DNA of 64,000 nucleotides, taken from NCBI RefSeq assembly GCF_028752835.1, contig NZ_CP087952.1, forward strand, positions 3,904,501 through 3,968,500. The letters are read 5' to 3'. The stretch comes from Desulfosarcina sp. BuS5. Lineage in GTDB: Bacteria > Desulfobacterota > Desulfobacteria > Desulfobacterales > BuS5. Positions 41,751-49,247 of this stretch are shown here, one piece after another (the stretch's first letter is position 1; every line of letters begins with the position of its first letter). The notes under the pieces were generated by a model. That model worked only from the letters and a program-made list of their open reading frames with translations, was not told the origin of the DNA and did no database searches. The translations under genes and the position numbers were made by a program.

Positions 41751-42848
41751 ATGACTCCTTTTTTAATAAAGCGTAAAAAGACAAAAGAGATTTATGTGGG
41801 CAAGGTAAAGATCGGGGGCTTTGCGCCCGTTGCGGTTCAGTCCATGACCAATACACCCACAGAGGATGTCCAGGCAACTGTTTCGCAGATCAAACGCCTG
41901 GAAGAAGCCGGTTGTGAAATCATACGTGTGGCGGTTCCTGATATGGAGGCTGCAACAGCTATCGTAAAGATCAAAAAAGAGATTTCCATCCCTTTGATAG
42001 CAGATATACACTTTGATTATCGCCTGGCTGTTGCCGCAGCAGAATCAGGCGCTGATGCTCTCAGGATAAACCCGGGGAACATTGGAGGCAGAAAAAAGGT
42101 CAAAGCAGTTACAGATGCCGCGAAAAATTTTAATATCCCCATAAGAATCGGTGTGAATGCCGGTTCCCTGGAAAAGGAATTTTTGGAAAAACATGGCGGT
42201 GTAACGGCCGAAGCAATGGTTGAAAGCGCCTTGAGGCACGTTGACCTGTTGGATTCGCTCGGTTTTCATGAAATCAAGCTTTCCTTAAAAGCGTCTGATA
42301 TACCAAGGACACTGGATGCATACAGGCTGCTTTCCTGCCATACAGATATTCCTCTTCATGTCGGCGTAACAGAGGCCGGAGGGCTTTTCCCCGGGATAGT
42401 CAAATCGTCCGTTGGCATAGGCATGCTTCTTGCAGAAGGTATTGGTGACACCATACGCGTATCATTGACCAGGGATCCTGTGGAAGAGATTAGAACCGGT
42501 TTTGAGATTCTGAAAGCCCTTGGAATGCGAAAACACGGACCGGAAATAATTTCGTGCCCGACTTGCGGAAGATGCAAAATCGATCTCTTTAATATTGCGA
42601 AACAGGTAGAGAAGGCGCTTTTAACATCATCAATGCCTTTAAAGATTGCGATCATGGGATGCATAGTAAACGGGCCGGGAGAAGCCAGGGAAGCGGATAT
42701 AGGTATTGCCGGAGGGAAAGGCGCAGGCATTCTATTCAAAAAAGGTAAGGTTGTTAAAAAAATCCCGGAGGATAGATTAGTTGATATTTTGTTGAAAGAG
42801 ATCAAGGAATACGAAAAAAATTACTTGGAGGGTGGTAAATTACAATGA
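41751..42848 (+). CDS. ispG: (E)-4-hydroxy-3-methylbut-2-enyl-diphosphate synthase IspG
   Basis: IspG is an iron-sulfur enzyme of the MEP isoprenoid pathway. The TIM-barrel start VAVQSMTNTPTEDV, ADIHFDYRLA and RINPGN are present, and the 4Fe-4S cysteines lie in SCPTCGRC and MGCIVNGPGEA. The 365-aa length is normal for the bacterial short form. Its stop overlaps the ATG of the GrpE-like gene. Confidence 0.97.
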   Translation: MTPFLIKRKKTKEIYVGKVKIGGFAPVAVQSMTNTPTEDVQATVSQIKRLEEAGCEIIRVAVPDMEAATAIVKIKKEISIPLIADIHFDYRLAVAAAESGADALRINPGNIGGRKKVKAVTDAAKNFNIPIRIGVNAGSLEKEFLEKHGGVTAEAMVESALRHVDLLDSLGFHEIKLSLKASDIPRTLDAYRLLSCHTDIPLHVGVTEAGGLFPGIVKSSVGIGMLLAEGIGDTIRVSLTRDPVEEIRTGFEILKALGMRKHGPEIISCPTCGRCKIDLFNIAKQVEKALLTSSMPLKIAIMGCIVNGPGEAREADIGIAGGKGAGILFKKGKVVKKIPEDRLVDILLKEIKEYEKNYLEGGKLQ

Positions 42849-43591
42849 TTGAAAATCATCTAAATGACCCCGTTTTTTTTGAAAAAGAACAAACACAGGC
42901 CATACCTTCGGAGGACTCCGGAGAAATCCTGGAACTTACTGAAATTTTCCAGCCTGCTCATAACGATTTTAAAGCGATTGCAGCAAAAGTTGAAAGGGAC
43001 TTTGATCAACCGGATTTCGGCGCATTTGTCGGTGAAGAGAATCAACTTGAAGATGCTGCTGATATTATTGAAGATGACGGGATTGACCTCACAATCCTAA
43101 AACTGGAGAGTCTTGAAAAGCAGATAGAACAGTTATCCAATGAGTTTACAAGCAAACTGAAATATGATGCTCATAAGGAAAAAATAATAGATGATCTTCA
43201 TCATGAACTCCAGCAATACAAAAATGATATTATAAAAAAGCAGTCAATGGCCATCATCCTGGATATGATAAAAGTTGTCGATGGGATCAGAAAATTTTTA
43301 GCGTATCATAAAGATAAAGAACCTTCCGATTCGGAGTTCGGGAAACTGCTTGATTTTATTGAAAGCATCCCTTCAGATATAGAAGATGTTTTTTTATTGC
43401 AAGGTGTAAATACTTTTACCTGCAACAATGAGGTTATCGACCCCGCCAGGCAAAAAATAGTAAAAAAAACAGCAACAACAGATAAATCAAAAGATAAAAT
43501 GGTAACAGCCACCATATCTCACGGCTATGAATGCGACGATAAGGTAATCCGCCCGGAAATGGTTCAAATTTTAACATACAAAAATTCTTAA
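42845..43591 (+). CDS. Divergent GrpE-like nucleotide exchange factor
   Basis: The 248-aa protein has a long acidic N-terminal extension (about 95 residues), a coiled-coil segment (LEKQIEQLSNEFTSKLKY, then HHELQQYKNDI) and a beta-wing C-terminus (QKIVKKTATTDKSKDKMVTA ... SHGYECDDKVIRPEMVQI). The last segment is the GrpE signature. It is followed 14 bases later by an Hsp70. It is not the housekeeping grpE, as length and sequence are unusual. Confidence 0.85.
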   Translation: MIENHLNDPVFFEKEQTQAIPSEDSGEILELTEIFQPAHNDFKAIAAKVERDFDQPDFGAFVGEENQLEDAADIIEDDGIDLTILKLESLEKQIEQLSNEFTSKLKYDAHKEKIIDDLHHELQQYKNDIIKKQSMAIILDMIKVVDGIRKFLAYHKDKEPSDSEFGKLLDFIESIPSDIEDVFLLQGVNTFTCNNEVIDPARQKIVKKTATTDKSKDKMVTATISHGYECDDKVIRPEMVQILTYKNS

Positions 43592-43605
43592 AATGGAGAT
43601 CCGCG

Positions 43606-45285
43606 ATGAGTGAGAAGATGAAAAAAGTTTTTGGCATAGATTTAGGCACCACATATTCGTCTATAGCTTATGTGGATGAATACGGAAAACCTGTTATTCT
43701 GCCTAATGTTGAAAACCAGCATCTTACCCCTTCAGTGGTTTTCTTTGATGAAGGCAACATAGTTGTCGGTGATGTGGCAAAAGAAAGCTCAAAAATTTAT
43801 CCTGATGAGGTGGTTAGTTTTGTAAAACGGTCCATGGGTGAGCCTAATTTTCTCTTCGAGTATGATTCAAAGATGTACAGGGCCGAGGAAATTTCGAGTT
43901 ATATTATAAGAAAAGTAGTCCAGGATGCGGAACAGAACCTGGGTGAAAAGATTACCGACGTGGTAATCACATGTCCTGCATATTTCGGGATTAATGAACG
44001 TGAGGCAACTAAAAAAGCCGGTGAGATAGCAGGATATAATGTGCGCCAAATTATAAATGAACCGACCGCCGCCGCCATTGCATATGGAACTGTCGAATCA
44101 TCCGAAAGAAAAACCGTACTTGTTTACGATCTAGGAGGCGGGACATTTGATATAACAATGATAGAGATTAAACCCGATGCAATCGAAGTAATATGCACAG
44201 GAGGAGATCATAACCTGGGAGGAAAAGACTGGGACGATAGAATTGTATCATACCTTGTTGAAAAATTTAAGAATAAGACAGGAATTGAAGAGGATATTCT
44301 CGATGATCCCGACACCTGCCAGGAACTGCAGCTTTCGGCTGAAAAAGCAAAAAAAGTCCTCTCCCAGAGGGAGAAGACCCCGATTGCCATCACTCACGGG
44401 GGAGAAAGAGTTAAGGTTGAACTGGAACGAAAAAAGTTTGAAGAGATTACAACGGATCTACTTGAAAGAACGATCGCTTTTATCCATGATATGCTGGAAG
44501 AGGCAAGAAAAAAAGGTTATGATAAATTCGATGAAATCATACTGGTAGGCGGAGCCACACGCATGCCGCTGATAATGAAACGTATTAAGGAAGAGTTCTC
44601 CATGGAGCCCAAGTCCTTCGATCCTGATGAATCCATAGCAAAAGGCGCTGCAATATATGGATGTAAACTTGTTCTTAATGATGGCCTGATTAAAAAAATT
44701 TCCGAAAATACAGGTAAAAAAATAAAGCCATTTGATGACCTTATTGAACTGACAGACGCGGTTGATGTGACTCCTGCGCAGATCCAGGAAGCTGCCCGGC
44801 AGGTTGCAGGTGAAACAGGATATACTCTTGCCGCGGTTGAGCGGTCTGCCGTAAAGGTTAAAAACGTCACTAGCAAGAGCTTTGGAGTTATAGTAAGAAA
44901 CAGGCAGAACGAAGAGCTTGTATTTAATCTCATTACACGAAACACATCTGTACCTGTAAACACCAAAAAGGCCTTTTTTACAGGGATCGCTGATCAGGAG
45001 ACAGTCCTGATCCGGATCATGGAGAATGAAACCAGTGAAAAGACTCTTCCTCCGCAATATGCAATAGAGATCGGAACCGCTGTCCTCGATCTACCTGACG
45101 GTCTTCCGGCCGATCTCCCAGTTGAAATCACTTTTAATCTGGATATGGATGGCTGTCTGCAAATTAATGCTGTAGAAACTTACAAATCTCGATGTGTGGA
45201 TGTTACCCTGAATACATGCGCTGTAATAAATGGAGAGGAACTTGAAGAAGCCAAGGCAAGGTGCAATAATCTGTTTGTTCACTAA
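43606..45285 (+). CDS. Hsp70-family chaperone, short (HscC-like)
   Basis: The ATPase motifs FGIDLGTTYSSIAYV, VYDLGGGTFDIT, NEPTAAAIAYG and LVGGATRMPLI are intact. The peptide-binding part is present (ITRNTSVPVNTKKAFFTG) but the helical lid is very short, giving 559 aa against about 640 for DnaK. This length resembles HscC, which works with membrane J-proteins in E. coli. It lies between GrpE-like and J-like partner genes, making a self-contained system. Substrates are unknown. Confidence 0.93.
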   Translation: MSEKMKKVFGIDLGTTYSSIAYVDEYGKPVILPNVENQHLTPSVVFFDEGNIVVGDVAKESSKIYPDEVVSFVKRSMGEPNFLFEYDSKMYRAEEISSYIIRKVVQDAEQNLGEKITDVVITCPAYFGINEREATKKAGEIAGYNVRQIINEPTAAAIAYGTVESSERKTVLVYDLGGGTFDITMIEIKPDAIEVICTGGDHNLGGKDWDDRIVSYLVEKFKNKTGIEEDILDDPDTCQELQLSAEKAKKVLSQREKTPIAITHGGERVKVELERKKFEEITTDLLERTIAFIHDMLEEARKKGYDKFDEIILVGGATRMPLIMKRIKEEFSMEPKSFDPDESIAKGAAIYGCKLVLNDGLIKKISENTGKKIKPFDDLIELTDAVDVTPAQIQEAARQVAGETGYTLAAVERSAVKVKNVTSKSFGVIVRNRQNEELVFNLITRNTSVPVNTKKAFFTGIADQETVLIRIMENETSEKTLPPQYAIEIGTAVLDLPDGLPADLPVEITFNLDMDGCLQINAVETYKSRCVDVTLNTCAVINGEELEEAKARCNNLFVH

Positions 45286-45297
45286 AAATGGCCTATA

Positions 45298-47643
45298 ATG
45301 GGAAGAAAAAATTTCTATATACTGCTCGATTTGTCAATCGATCCCCCTGAAGAGGAGCAAAAAATAATTGAGCTGGCGATTAAGCAAAAGCAGGCTGAAT
45401 GGAGCCGCTCCCGCAATCATCCCACCAAGGGCTTAAAAGCTAAACAGTATATCGGCCTGCTTCCTGAAATCCGCAGGATCATGGGTGATCCGGAGCTGCG
45501 GAAAACCGAAGCCTCAAATGCGGCAACAATCCTTTCAAAAAAAGCCGGCGAAAAATTTTTGGTGATAGACAGGCATATTGCCATCTGTATGAGCAAGGGT
45601 TTCATAACCGACGAAGAAATTTTTAATCTGGCCAAACGCCATTCTGTTAAAGACAATGAAATCAGAAAAAGGGTAAAGCAAAGGGAAGATGCAAAAAATG
45701 CGGAGATAAACAAGCAGGTTAAGTTACGCTCCGCTAAAGGATACATAACTAAAGACGAGCTGTTAGAGCTTGCGAAAATTCACTCTGTAAGCGCCAAAGA
45801 GATCCGCAAGAGAGTAACCTGCCCCATCAAAAAAAGCTTACAAAAATCAGCAAAAAAGCCCAAACCTTTAGATAAAGCTATAGAAAAAATTATAACTGAT
45901 AATCTTAAAATCGTAGGAAAATCATCTCTTTATCAATTCCTTGATCTTCCTTCGGACTCCAGTCTGGAATCCTTGCAAGAAAAATCAAAAAAAAGAGAGT
46001 CCGAATTACACAAAAGAGGTAAAAAAGACGCTCTTGGCACAGCCGGAATAGCCTTGGCAGGGCATTGTCGAACGATTTTCAAGACTGAAAACACCCGCAA
46101 CTCGTATGACATGACCAATGCCCGCTCTCTTCTTAAAGGTCTGGATTCAGATATTGATGTGGCGGGGATGGATGGTACAATAAGAACGGAATATTATAAT
46201 GCTCTGGTCGATTCCGCCGTCAAATTAGGCATGAACAGAAATGAAGCTCACAAGTATATTAGAGATTACTCCAGGAAAAAAAAATGGAAAATTGAGACTA
46301 AAGCAAAAAGGCCGGGCTGGGTTCTGTATGCTGTAGTCATTGCTGCATTGCTGTTTATAGGCGCCGGCACTGGAATATATTTACATATAAAAAATGAAAG
46401 CAAGCTGAAAAAAGAATATCAGCAGGTGCTTGCTGGTATAGAAAATGATAATGATCTGCAAAAAAAGGTGCGGGTATTCAATAATTATATCAGCACACAT
46501 AAAGAGAGCGACCGTACTATTGATGCTGTAAAACGGCTGGAAAAGTTGCGCCTTGCCATAGATGAGCTGAAAGCAAAAGAGTTCACTGCCGATGCGGATA
46601 AATTATTGGCGGAAAAAAAATATCAAAATGCTCTGGCAATTTACAAGGAGTTTATAAGGAGATATCCGAAAAGCCTTTACGCGGATAAAATTAAAAAAAA
46701 AATCGAGGAATTATCGGTGCTGCTTGATGATATTGATTACAAAGAACTGGACAGGTTACACGGCAAGCTGGTGCAGGTAAGAGCATTGGCATATTCCGCA
46801 TATTTAAAGGAACATCCAAAAGGTAAAAATATCAAAAATGCAAAAAAAATCCTATCGAACATACGCGAGGAATATTACCTGACTCTGCTTAAGGAGATTG
46901 AGAAATGTGCAAAAAATGAGGACTGGGAAAAAGGAGTGCTCTCATGCGATGACTTTATTAAAATATATAATGGGCATCAACGTGCTGTAGAAATTAAAGA
47001 ACAACAGGATATTCTACGCACCCGCTTATGGGAAAAAGAAACTTTCGCCCGGATGCTGCAAAAAGTAAATGCTAAAGGGGGGGATTACCAGGCCGGAAGA
47101 CAAATTTTTATTGATTATTTAAATGCTTATCCCGATTCTTACATAAATGATAAGATAAAGGTGGAACTGGCCAATCTGGACAAAAAGGAATTAATGGCAA
47201 AAACTGCCGCTAAAAAAGAACGTCTGATAAGGTTAATTAAAAAATCCGGCAACCGTTTTATTCTCAACAGTAATGATACTGTAAGGGACATAAAGACCGG
47301 CCTGACATGGTGCGTGGCTGATTCCCTGCTCGATACGGATGATTGTCTAGACTACGACTCTGCAATAGAATATACTAATAATTTAAAGACAGGCGGATAT
47401 AACGACTGGCGCCTGCCGACTGTCGTTGAACTGGCTCAGCTCTATAAGCAAAAGCCTTTTTTTCCTCAAGGTGAATCTGAATGGTACTGGACATCAAAAA
47501 ATTATTCACGCTATGCTGACGGCTGGAGCAAAGTGGTTGACATTGTAACTTCTAAAAATGAAGTTATGTGGGAAAAGGAGGAGAGAGATTCGCGGGACTG
47601 CGGATCCGTACGTGCGGTAAGGTATAGAGCTTCACATAAATAA
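45298..47643 (+). CDS. Membrane-anchored J-like co-chaperone with DUF1566 domain
   Basis: Residues about 4-75 look like a J domain (NFYILLDLSIDPPEEEQ ... GDPELRKTEAS), but the essential HPD is HPT (in RNHPTKG). A second J-like stretch (SSLYQFLDLPSDSSLESL, near residue 205) lacks any HPD. A transmembrane helix (WVLYAVVIAALLFIGAGTG) lies near 340. TPR-like helical repeats follow (AKEFTADADKLLAEKKYQNA), then a C-terminal DUF1566/Lcl domain (DIKTGLTWC ... YNDWRLPTVVELAQLY) near 660-775. The function is likely to couple the Hsp70 to the membrane. The stop TAA lies inside a palindromic repeat. Confidence 0.8.
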   Translation: MGRKNFYILLDLSIDPPEEEQKIIELAIKQKQAEWSRSRNHPTKGLKAKQYIGLLPEIRRIMGDPELRKTEASNAATILSKKAGEKFLVIDRHIAICMSKGFITDEEIFNLAKRHSVKDNEIRKRVKQREDAKNAEINKQVKLRSAKGYITKDELLELAKIHSVSAKEIRKRVTCPIKKSLQKSAKKPKPLDKAIEKIITDNLKIVGKSSLYQFLDLPSDSSLESLQEKSKKRESELHKRGKKDALGTAGIALAGHCRTIFKTENTRNSYDMTNARSLLKGLDSDIDVAGMDGTIRTEYYNALVDSAVKLGMNRNEAHKYIRDYSRKKKWKIETKAKRPGWVLYAVVIAALLFIGAGTGIYLHIKNESKLKKEYQQVLAGIENDNDLQKKVRVFNNYISTHKESDRTIDAVKRLEKLRLAIDELKAKEFTADADKLLAEKKYQNALAIYKEFIRRYPKSLYADKIKKKIEELSVLLDDIDYKELDRLHGKLVQVRALAYSAYLKEHPKGKNIKNAKKILSNIREEYYLTLLKEIEKCAKNEDWEKGVLSCDDFIKIYNGHQRAVEIKEQQDILRTRLWEKETFARMLQKVNAKGGDYQAGRQIFIDYLNAYPDSYINDKIKVELANLDKKELMAKTAAKKERLIRLIKKSGNRFILNSNDTVRDIKTGLTWCVADSLLDTDDCLDYDSAIEYTNNLKTGGYNDWRLPTVVELAQLYKQKPFFPQGESEWYWTSKNYSRYADGWSKVVDIVTSKNEVMWEKEERDSRDCGSVRAVRYRASHK

Positions 47644-47748: not shown

Positions 47749-48378
47749 TCAGGTTAGAAATTTATCAGGTGACTTGATATGCTTTAATACTATCGTCTCC
47801 CACAATATATGAAGAATATTTGTAATAAAGGTCACCTGACCGACCTTACGCAAATCCCTGATGATATCCTGCTCGCCTGCTTTTACTATTCTGTCCGCCT
47901 CATCTGCAATTGTTGCCATAAGCTCATCAGCATCCATTGCATCTCTGAAAATTCTTGTTAACGCAAGCCTTACCTTCCCGGATCTTGGAAGCCCAAGCTG
48001 GTCCATAGCCTGCCTGAACATTTTGGAGTCGACTCCCTGAAGCTCTTCAATAACCGCTTTTGCGCCCTTGTGGTGAATATGGTAAACTCCAGTATTTTTT
48101 TTTAATGTAATCATTGCATAGCAGGCATGAGTGTCGCTGGTGCATCCGAACATAGCGGTTTGTGCTGTTTCGTGTTTATGACTGCCGACGGACAGACTCT
48201 TGAACAACTTTTTAATATCAATTTCGGGGTTTGTAATATAAAAATCGGCAGCAACATTCGGTGTTTTTGCATGCTCAAGGGAGAGCCTTATTCCATGTTC
48301 AAACTTTTCAACACCGATCCCCCGTTTTTGAAGGATTTGTTGTATTTTTTCTATTTTTATAGCATTACCCTGTTTCAT
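47749..48378 (-). CDS. Hypothetical protein
   Basis: I do not recognise this soluble protein of about 209 residues (ATG 48378; an upstream TTG at 48399 would give 216). It has a Cys/His-containing central segment (KHETAQTAMFGCTSDTHACY) followed by YHIHHKGAKAVIEEL and a helical C-terminus. No transmembrane segment is seen. It is transcribed away from the DUF4388 gene, with which it shares a very short promoter region. No function is claimed. Confidence 0.6.
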   Translation of the reverse strand: MKQGNAIKIEKIQQILQKRGIGVEKFEHGIRLSLEHAKTPNVAADFYITNPEIDIKKLFKSLSVGSHKHETAQTAMFGCTSDTHACYAMITLKKNTGVYHIHHKGAKAVIEELQGVDSKMFRQAMDQLGLPRSGKVRLALTRIFRDAMDADELMATIADEADRIVKAGEQDIIRDLRKVGQVTFITNILHILWETIVLKHIKSPDKFLT

Positions 48379-48449
48379 ATGCTGTAAAATAATTGACAAG
48401 AATTATAATGGGATATACAAAAAATTATAAACAATTTAAATGGAGTAAA

Positions 48450-49247
48450 ATGTCACTCACAGGCAATATTAATACTATCGACCTTGCAGACTTATTGCAA
48501 CTTCTATGCAATGATCAGAAGACTGGAATTCTTAAAATAACAAATGAAAAGAATGAAGTCAAAATTATTATTAAGGATGGCTCCATTATATACGCCACAA
48601 GTTCACAAAAAGAATTCCGCTTAGGAACTCTTATGGTTAATGAAGGAATCATAACCTATAAGCAGCTGATGGATGCAATTGCTGAAAGCAAAAAGCAAAA
48701 CCTTGCCATCGGCAAATTTCTTGTAATAAAAAAACATATTACCACCGATATTCTAAAACAATTCAGCAACAAGCAGGTGGAAGAGATTCTTTATAACATC
48801 TTCCTGTGGAATGAAGGTAATTTTGAATATAAAGACCAGGCGCATAATTTTGACGAAATGATTGTTGCTCCGTTCAACACAATGAACATAATCCTTGAAG
48901 CAGCGCGTCGCATAGATGAAATGTCAATTTTTAAAAAAAAGATCAATAACGAAAAAATGGTCTTTAATATAACTGAAAAAATACTGGATAATGAAGGTAT
49001 AATACTTCAATTAAATGAATGGCGGATGCTCTCATTTGTCGACGGAACATGCTCTGTTGAAGGAATAATAAAAAAAAGCGGTTTTGATAAATATTCAGTC
49101 TATAGAATATTGTACTCCCTGATTTCATATGGCCTGGTTGAAGAATGCGCCGCGGGACAGGTGGAAGAAAAAGATACTGTTAATTTTTCTGCTATTATAT
49201 GCGAATATTATAATATTCTGCAGACAGTCAGAAGTTGTTTTATATAG
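48450..49247 (+). CDS. DUF4388 (PatA-like) domain protein
   Basis: The start SLTGNINTIDLADLLQLLC and GILKITNEKNEVKIIIKDGS mark an N-terminal DUF4388/PATAN domain. A middle helical region (RLGTLMVNEGIITYKQLMDA) follows, then a winged-helix-like C-terminus (CSVEGIIKKSGFDKYSVYRI). Such proteins often act in gliding, polarity or response-regulator outputs. ATG 48450 with GGAG four bases upstream gives 265 aa; upstream starts at 48393 and 48408 are less likely. A MITE is inserted directly after its stop codon. Confidence 0.8.
   Translation: MSLTGNINTIDLADLLQLLCNDQKTGILKITNEKNEVKIIIKDGSIIYATSSQKEFRLGTLMVNEGIITYKQLMDAIAESKKQNLAIGKFLVIKKHITTDILKQFSNKQVEEILYNIFLWNEGNFEYKDQAHNFDEMIVAPFNTMNIILEAARRIDEMSIFKKKINNEKMVFNITEKILDNEGIILQLNEWRMLSFVDGTCSVEGIIKKSGFDKYSVYRILYSLISYGLVEECAAGQVEEKDTVNFSAIICEYYNILQTVRSCFI

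Follow-up and report, generated by a model that had tools for sequence, protein, structure and literature searches.

The 64,000 nt stretch analysed here (the window) covers positions 3,904,501 to 3,968,500 of contig NZ_CP087952.1 from Desulfosarcina sp. BuS5, a member of the order Desulfobacterales. Directly after ispG it contains a grpE gene, an hsp70 gene with a short lid and a gene for a 781 aa membrane protein, here named JL, which has two J-like segments (J1 and J2) and a DUF1566-type domain. The original prediction, made from the sequence, was that these three genes form a self-contained divergent Hsp70 system whose J-like partner lacks the HPD motif. All three open reading frames (ORFs) lie where it placed them, on the + strand, with Pfam matches to GrpE, HSP70 and Lcl_C, respectively. 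The features, in window coordinates, are as follows.

41751–42848, + strand: ispG (GcpE; PF04551, E = 9.6e-155)
42845–43591, + strand: grpE, 248 aa (PF01025, E = 2.7e-15), with an acidic N-terminal extension; GrpE domain at residues 86–242
43606–45285, + strand: hsp70, 559 aa (PF00012, E = 3e-109), with the lid nearly gone and the catalytic residues kept
44047–44049, + strand: Gln codon at the position of Escherichia coli DnaK R167 (Hsp70 residue 148)
44656–44658, + strand: Tyr codon at the position of E. coli DnaK Q378 (Hsp70 residue 351)
44680–44850, + strand: insertion of approximately 57 residues in Hsp70, after the nucleotide-binding domain and before the interdomain linker; the linker VLLLD reads VKVKN
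45298–47643, + strand: JL, membrane protein of 781 aa; carries two J-like segments and Lcl_C (DUF1566)
45298–45522, + strand: J1, J-like segment 1, JL residues 1–75, placed by profile comparison; the best conserved part of JL
45418–45426, + strand: HPT in the place of HPD, JL residues 41–43, from alignment
45553–45822, + strand: two helical repeat units, JL residues 86–175, without a Pfam family; repeats judged by eye in the alignment
45883–46152, + strand: J2, J-like segment 2, JL residues 196–285; profile match at 207–229, score 27.3
46021–46029, + strand: KKD in the J2 loop, JL residues 242–244, from alignment
46309–46392, + strand: single hydrophobic span, JL residues 338–365
46396–47262, + strand: TPR-like region, JL residues 367–655 (TPR_6, E = 7.2e-06), probably outside the cytoplasmic membrane, the side being judged from charges
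47278–47550, + strand: Lcl_C (DUF1566 type), JL residues 661–751 (PF07603, E = 4.7e-15)

The ispG and grpE genes overlap by 4 bases, and gaps of 14 and 12 bases separate grpE from hsp70 and hsp70 from JL, tight spacing that makes the four genes look like one transcription unit. The GrpE match scores 56.9 bits against a Pfam cut-off of 25.8, and residues 1–85 contain 23 D/E and 4 K/R, bearing out the long acidic extension described in the original prediction. As the length and sequence of this extension vary among aligned homologues, we consider it unremarkable. In JL, Pfam recognizes Lcl_C and TPR_6, plus weaker matches. Besides this cluster, the host genome (4.18 Mb, two contigs) encodes two DnaK-like proteins of full length and a third divergent Hsp70. 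It also gives eight matches to the J domain, of which seven exceed the Pfam cut-off; the nearest of these J genes is approximately 18 kb downstream and none is in the operon. Because the genome holds these other DnaK-like, Hsp70 and J-domain proteins, grpE-hsp70-JL is an additional chaperone system.

When 194 genomes of the order were searched with the N-terminal 341 residues of JL and with a profile of the linker and beta sandwich of this Hsp70 subfamily (E ≤ 1e-20), 52 contained JL, 52 contained the Hsp70 subfamily and 51 contained both. The pair therefore occurs together in 51 of the 53 order genomes that have either member, as expected of a self-contained system. Among 395 genomes representing the phylum, JL was found in 8 and the Hsp70 subfamily in the identical 8, all of them from this order; the subfamily scores were at least 164 bits, and the remaining matches listed reached at most 54. 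Of the 50 JL genes with surroundings read (the JL genes of genomes G165 and G179 are left out of this count), 46 follow hsp70 on the same strand, at gaps of 12 to 438 bases. Where the contig permits, and with paralogues left out, hsp70 has grpE immediately before it in 46 of 48 loci. In G162, JL stands apart and grpE-hsp70 is elsewhere in the genome. At two loci, L052 and L054 (genomes G101 and G053), grpE was not found upstream of hsp70, which is closely preceded by an EF-G-like gene.

A metagenome-assembled Desulfobacterales contig encodes a JL that is 91% identical to that in the window. One scan that reached beyond the phylum, using patterns from close relatives, gave one locus, and JL had no match among plasmid records. 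Rows were dropped for a J1-profile match on contig 130 of G080 (E = 0.005), an ORF without a J motif by eye, and for two matches outside the order, in G370 and G543 (E = 0.002 and 0.009), that contain stops; locus L009 was left out as a probable duplicate of L048. No published description of the cluster was found in titles and abstract openings, a coverage that mostly excludes subscription journals. We conclude that the system of Hsp70, GrpE and a J-like membrane protein is real and conserved and, as far as searched, restricted to this order.

J1 contains the motif R-N-H-P-T-K at JL residues 39–44. Amongst the 51 J1 segments that could be read, the motif is HPT in 48 and HPI, HPS and HST in one each; HPD is found in none, so the prediction of a partner lacking HPD holds across the family. 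Residues W35, R39, N40, H41, P42 and K44 are identical in all 40 aligned J1 segments, and T43 is present in 39/40, with Ile in the other. Mean pairwise identity is 0.61 for J1, 0.51 for J2, 0.44 for Lcl_C and 0.27 for the TPR-like region, compared with 0.38 for the whole of JL. As the residues flanking it are invariant and no other part of the protein is as well conserved as J1, HPT is a motif that has been kept, not one that has decayed. The original prediction was correct in assigning HPT to the first J-like segment but not quite so in finding no such motif in the second, where the loop (K-K-D-A in the window) retains the aspartate in 37/40 aligned sequences.

A profile of 27 canonical J domains was compared with the JL profile, using 60 column shuffles and the reversed profile as controls. 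Its top two places in JL were residues 1–69 (score 28.3), with HPD aligned over HPT, and residues 207–229 (27.3), in J1 and J2. The third place scored 13.6, the best of the 60 shuffles 20.1 and the reversed profile 12.5. The probabilities attached to the two comparisons are low (15.6 and 12.2), and therefore only the contrast with the shuffles counts. An earlier hhalign comparison with six J domains was weak (probabilities of 5 and 14) and is superseded by this larger, controlled run. The alignment of HPD with HPT is accompanied by a helix III pattern, I-x2-I-x2-I-x3-M-x-D-x3-R. By profile similarity, J1 and J2 are likely to be J-like domains of type IV, the class that PMC10349383, in the part of that article available, defines by a modified HPD motif.

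A hydrophobic span follows J2 in all 39 JL proteins that are long enough. When charges were counted by hand over 15 residues to each side, the N-terminal side was the more positive in 29/38 (L053, whose first span is a different one, is left out). This bias suggests a cytoplasmic location for J1 and J2 and an outer one for the TPR-like region and Lcl_C. Of 10 homologues scanned, 9 have Lcl_C; the one without it is a JL paralogue at locus L125.

Residues of the Hsp70 subfamily are numbered here as in E. coli DnaK and were checked on that sequence. The catalytic residues K70, P143, E171, T199 and D201 are present in 38/38 aligned proteins and D8 and T11 in 37/38, with one row gapped. The substrate-binding beta sandwich is also present, with F426, T428, Q433 and I438 in 38/38 and V436 in 34/38. 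The lid is nearly absent: in the 38 rows the chain stops approximately 20 residues past E. coli position 505. An alpha-helical lid is not treated here as essential for membership of the Hsp70 family. Approximately 50 extra residues precede the linker across the subfamily, and in place of VLLLD the linker is mostly V/I/L-K/R-I/V-K/R-N/D, with K/R replacing L390 in 33/38 and L392 in 32/38. D148 has been replaced by Ile in 38/38.

The changes that matter most for the partnership are at the J-binding site. According to the accessible part of PMC8215388, D35 of DnaJ binds R167 and Q378 of DnaK, H33 contacts the backbone of L391, P34 contacts P419, and E206, D211, E217 and D477 lie opposite basic residues of DnaJ. 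In 49 partner Hsp70s, R167 is replaced by Gln (47) or His (2) and Q378 by Tyr (44) or Phe (5), and the canonical residue is kept at neither position (0/49 for each). P419 is Pro in 49/49, and L391 is Ile or Val in 38/38. Thus, on the sequences compared, the His-Pro contacts are retained on both sides and the Asp contacts are lost on both sides. Of the acidic residues, the position of E206 is acidic in 35/38 and that of E217 in 33/38; D211 falls in a gap, as it also does in the canonical DnaKs of the same genome, and the position of D477 is acidic in only 4/38. JL positions 53 and 56, placed by eye opposite D477 where DnaJ has K48, are not basic, so the K48–D477 salt bridge has probably been lost on both sides.

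From the missing aspartate, the original prediction had reasoned that JL may act in a different way, as a membrane scaffold or substrate adaptor. The absence of the aspartate is real. The reasoning oversimplifies, since R167 and Q378, which form the Hsp70 side of the same contact, are missing too, although P419 is retained and position 391 is still hydrophobic. Rewiring of the J contact is no less likely than a pure scaffold role. A comparable exchange is known from the laboratory, where DnaK R167H suppresses DnaJ D35N (Suh 1998, as cited in the text seen of PMC7289447 and PMC5519331), and the portion of PMC13012618 at hand mentions R167A paired with D35N. His at position 167 occurs naturally in L064 and L065.

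Canonical DnaKs of the relatives show no such change. Using the best match in each of 30 relatives, R167 was found in 30/30; among canonical sequences aligned, E. coli included, Q378 was found in 27/27. The order also has a second dedicated Hsp70 (approximately 580 aa) with a small J protein (approximately 100–150 aa) nearby, for example at

G000:C1:1339773–1342698 (L003, L016): second dedicated Hsp70-J locus, with 14 further loci

and in 15/15 loci with a J found this Hsp70 has R167 and Q378. The motif of its J protein is TPE, SPE, PPE or PPD; the histidine has been lost and the acid kept in 15/15. These 15 loci are 13 of a set of 17, together with L003 and L132; those left out of the 17 are L286 (R/Q at positions 167/378, no J found), L297 and L301 (no Hsp70 by the filter) and L302 (another type, with K/L). 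E. coli HscC likewise has R167 and Q378, and DjlB and DjlC read HPE. Judged from their sequences, those pairs read that have the acid also have both of its receivers, even when the histidine has been lost, and the JL pair is without the acid and without both receivers.

We therefore favour JL as a dedicated, membrane-anchored J-type partner of the adjoining Hsp70 that uses a rewired J-Hsp70 contact, and we put the probability of this reading at about 0.5. J1 would dock on the linker face of Hsp70 in the manner of DnaJ, via His-Pro and helix II. The contact of D35 with R167 and Q378 would have been replaced from both sides, with Thr opposite Gln/His and Tyr/Phe, so that the Asp-Arg lever is swapped for another contact. 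JL would then drive its own Hsp70, while the HPD proteins of the cell would be kept off that Hsp70 and JL off the housekeeping DnaK, and GrpE would reset Hsp70 in its nucleotide exchange role. J1, J2 and Hsp70 would be cytoplasmic, connected by the span to the outer TPR-like repeats and DUF1566-type domain, which may anchor or sense something in the envelope. An envelope event or a client could in this way position Hsp70 at the membrane. An Hsp70 without a lid is expected to release clients fast, and fast release would suit repeated brief binding at a membrane station.

In its fullest form the rewired partnership would be a naturally insulated pair, in which R167/Q378 and the Asp of HPD were exchanged jointly as a natural version of the D35N/R167H suppressor pair, running a chaperone station across the membrane in which the outer DUF1566-type domain sets when and where Hsp70 acts. 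This version is tentative, and we rate it somewhat short of even odds.

A number of observations weigh against the rewired partnership; they concern the statistics of the changed positions, the loci where the two proteins are not together, and the fold of J1 and J2. In a tree of 73 Hsp70s, a minimum of three changes is required at each of positions 167 and 378, and the JL branch accounts for one of them. The evidence is therefore one correlated change and not repeated covariation, and the tree offers only three independent contrasts. Divergence in the subfamily is also extensive. Of 169 nucleotide-binding-domain positions that are invariant in canonical DnaK, 39 never keep the canonical residue in the subfamily, so that there is a chance of approximately 5% that two named positions would both be changed through divergence alone. 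Four of the 30 canonical DnaKs (removed by a start-motif filter) and the partial or paralogous L273–L276 and L282 are left out of this comparison. On these grounds, R167/Q378 as a statistically outstanding pair in its own right was rejected. At position 166, beside the changed 167, Arg (44/49) or His (5/49) keeps a basic residue close to the site, and the altered linker and D148 mean that the allostery of this Hsp70 may differ widely from that of DnaK.

Loss at these positions is not confined to the JL clade. Other Hsp70-like proteins with no J protein found nearby have R/L (4/4 of a 770 aa type), K/M, K/L, T/Y, T/F or Q/I at 167/378, and have thus lost one or both receivers. At L125:2482–8979 (G006, contig 499), the JL paralogue is 990 aa, reads HPS and has a weak zinc-ribbon match in addition to lacking Lcl_C; it adjoins both a 683 aa R-type Hsp70 (R167, Q378) and a Q-type Hsp70. 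In the tree, the R-type protein of L125 is sister to the whole Q-type clade, on a long branch that was flagged. The L275 paralogue has reverted to R167 but has L378. Q-type paralogues of Hsp70 without an adjoining JL include six of the seven copies in G190 (L117–L121) and others in G162 and G179; the residue at 378 is less uniform in these (F, C, M, Y or L), and no JL was found on the stretches read. Finally, G038 (93% complete, approximately 1020 contigs) has a grpE-hsp70 of the Q/Y type at L268:525–2910, with no JL in the 525 bases after hsp70 or in the genome-wide JL search. Loss of its JL to the contig end was rejected, as those 525 bases hold none.

AlphaFold models made from JL residues 1–90 alone (J1) and from residues 196–340 with one 90% identical relative (J2) are of low confidence, with predicted local distance difference test (pLDDT) values of 51 and 62, respectively, and place helices either side of the HPT and KKD loops. 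Apart from this placing of the loops, the models are taken as evidence neither for a J fold nor against one. Fold searches of the PDB with these low-confidence models yielded nothing at E ≤ 0.001, and the matches listed (the best 50 of 227 for J2, and 1 of 1 for J1) did not include a J domain. When the JL profile was used to search PDB sequences with hmmsearch, MazF chains were at the top (E = 0.015, profile positions 87–144) and a DnaJ domain was returned at E = 0.46; neither is significant. Given the low profile probabilities and the poor quality of models that each drew on no more than two sequences, a J fold is likely yet unproved.

As the statistics alone do not single out R167 and Q378, the case for the rewired partnership is built on the agreement of the individual contacts and on the difference from J proteins that bear the acid. 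The key and the lock have probably changed together, one time, which is coherent but statistically thin.

The alternative that survives best is that this Hsp70 is independent of J stimulation and that J1 and J2 are J-derived scaffolds, similar to Pam16, which tether Hsp70 or each other at the membrane. The disappearance of both receivers of the HPD aspartate and the altered linker and D148 agree with this, as does the loss of one or both receivers from the other Hsp70-like proteins that have no J protein nearby. There is also a precedent, since Pam16 is described in the available part of PMC5773037 as a degenerate J-like domain that binds another J domain and gives no stimulation of Hsp70, and two J-like segments in each JL chain would fit such J-J pairing. 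However, a scaffold need not keep His-Pro identical in 40/40 or the Hsp70 contact P419 in 49/49. In G133 (66% complete), where JL is present without an Hsp70 subfamily match and follows ispG directly at L277:3085–4888, with no grpE or hsp70 between, J1 reads HST, a single case from an incomplete genome. We consider a pure scaffold possible but unlikely and favour the rewired, membrane-tethered pair over a scaffold relic, a choice that biochemistry must decide.

It is more doubtful still that J1 and J2 are not J domains at all but unrelated helical domains of a membrane scaffold in which HPT is coincidental. The low-confidence models and the lack of a J domain among the fold matches listed are consistent with this proposal, and JL has no DnaJ match in Pfam at E ≤ 1, with 1 of 25 family members scanned giving one (E = 0.05). 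It leaves unexplained why the canonical J profile picks exactly J1 and J2, above all 60 shuffles and with HPD on HPT, together with the helix III pattern, and why the operon partner is an Hsp70 with a GrpE. That an ordinary HPD protein of the cell, of which the seven matches over the Pfam cut-off are candidates, serves this Hsp70 while JL merely delivers clients is very improbable, given that this Hsp70 has neither R167 nor Q378, the residues of DnaK that HPD proteins make use of, and that the J genes are outside the operon.

J function is widely regarded as requiring the HPD aspartate. In this bacterial lineage HPT is all but fixed, alongside a dedicated Hsp70 without exactly those residues that read the aspartate. 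If the rewired pair is active, the HPD code can be rewritten, Hsp70 allostery could be dissected with an orthogonal Hsp70-J pair taken from nature, and bacteria would have a membrane-tethered Hsp70 station. If J1 does not stimulate, the system would instead be a clean example of an Hsp70 freed from J control.

Beyond JL, a 216 aa ORF at window positions 47749–48399 (- strand) is convergent to JL and has no significant Pfam family; its relatives adjoin the cluster in 12/39 loci. It is followed at 48393–49247 by a gene for a DUF4388 protein (E = 3.9e-33), matches to which lie upstream of grpE in several relatives.

Compared with known systems, the cluster resembles DnaK-DnaJ-GrpE of E. coli in its Hsp70 fold, catalytic residues, GrpE and J-type partner and in P419 and the hydrophobic residue at L391. 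It differs in that R167 and Q378 are replaced, the linker is changed and preceded by approximately 50 extra residues, the lid is missing, and the partner is an HPT membrane protein with DUF1566. HscC with DjlB and DjlC in E. coli, and the similar pair in this order, are like it in that a divergent Hsp70 is dedicated to a J protein of its own, and that J protein has an altered motif; our guess is that the second pair of the order is HscC-like. Unlike JL, the J proteins of these pairs still have an acidic third residue (HPE; TPE, SPE, PPE or PPD) and their Hsp70s keep R167 and Q378. Pam16 and Pam18 with mitochondrial Hsp70 share a J-like domain at the membrane, an Hsp70 and an exchange factor, as far as the text available of PMC5773037 describes them, whereas here two J-like segments are in one bacterial chain and the Hsp70 itself is altered at the HPD site. 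Type IV J-domain proteins also have a J-like domain with a changed HPD, but in JL the HPT is nearly fixed across the order and comes with an Hsp70 altered to match.

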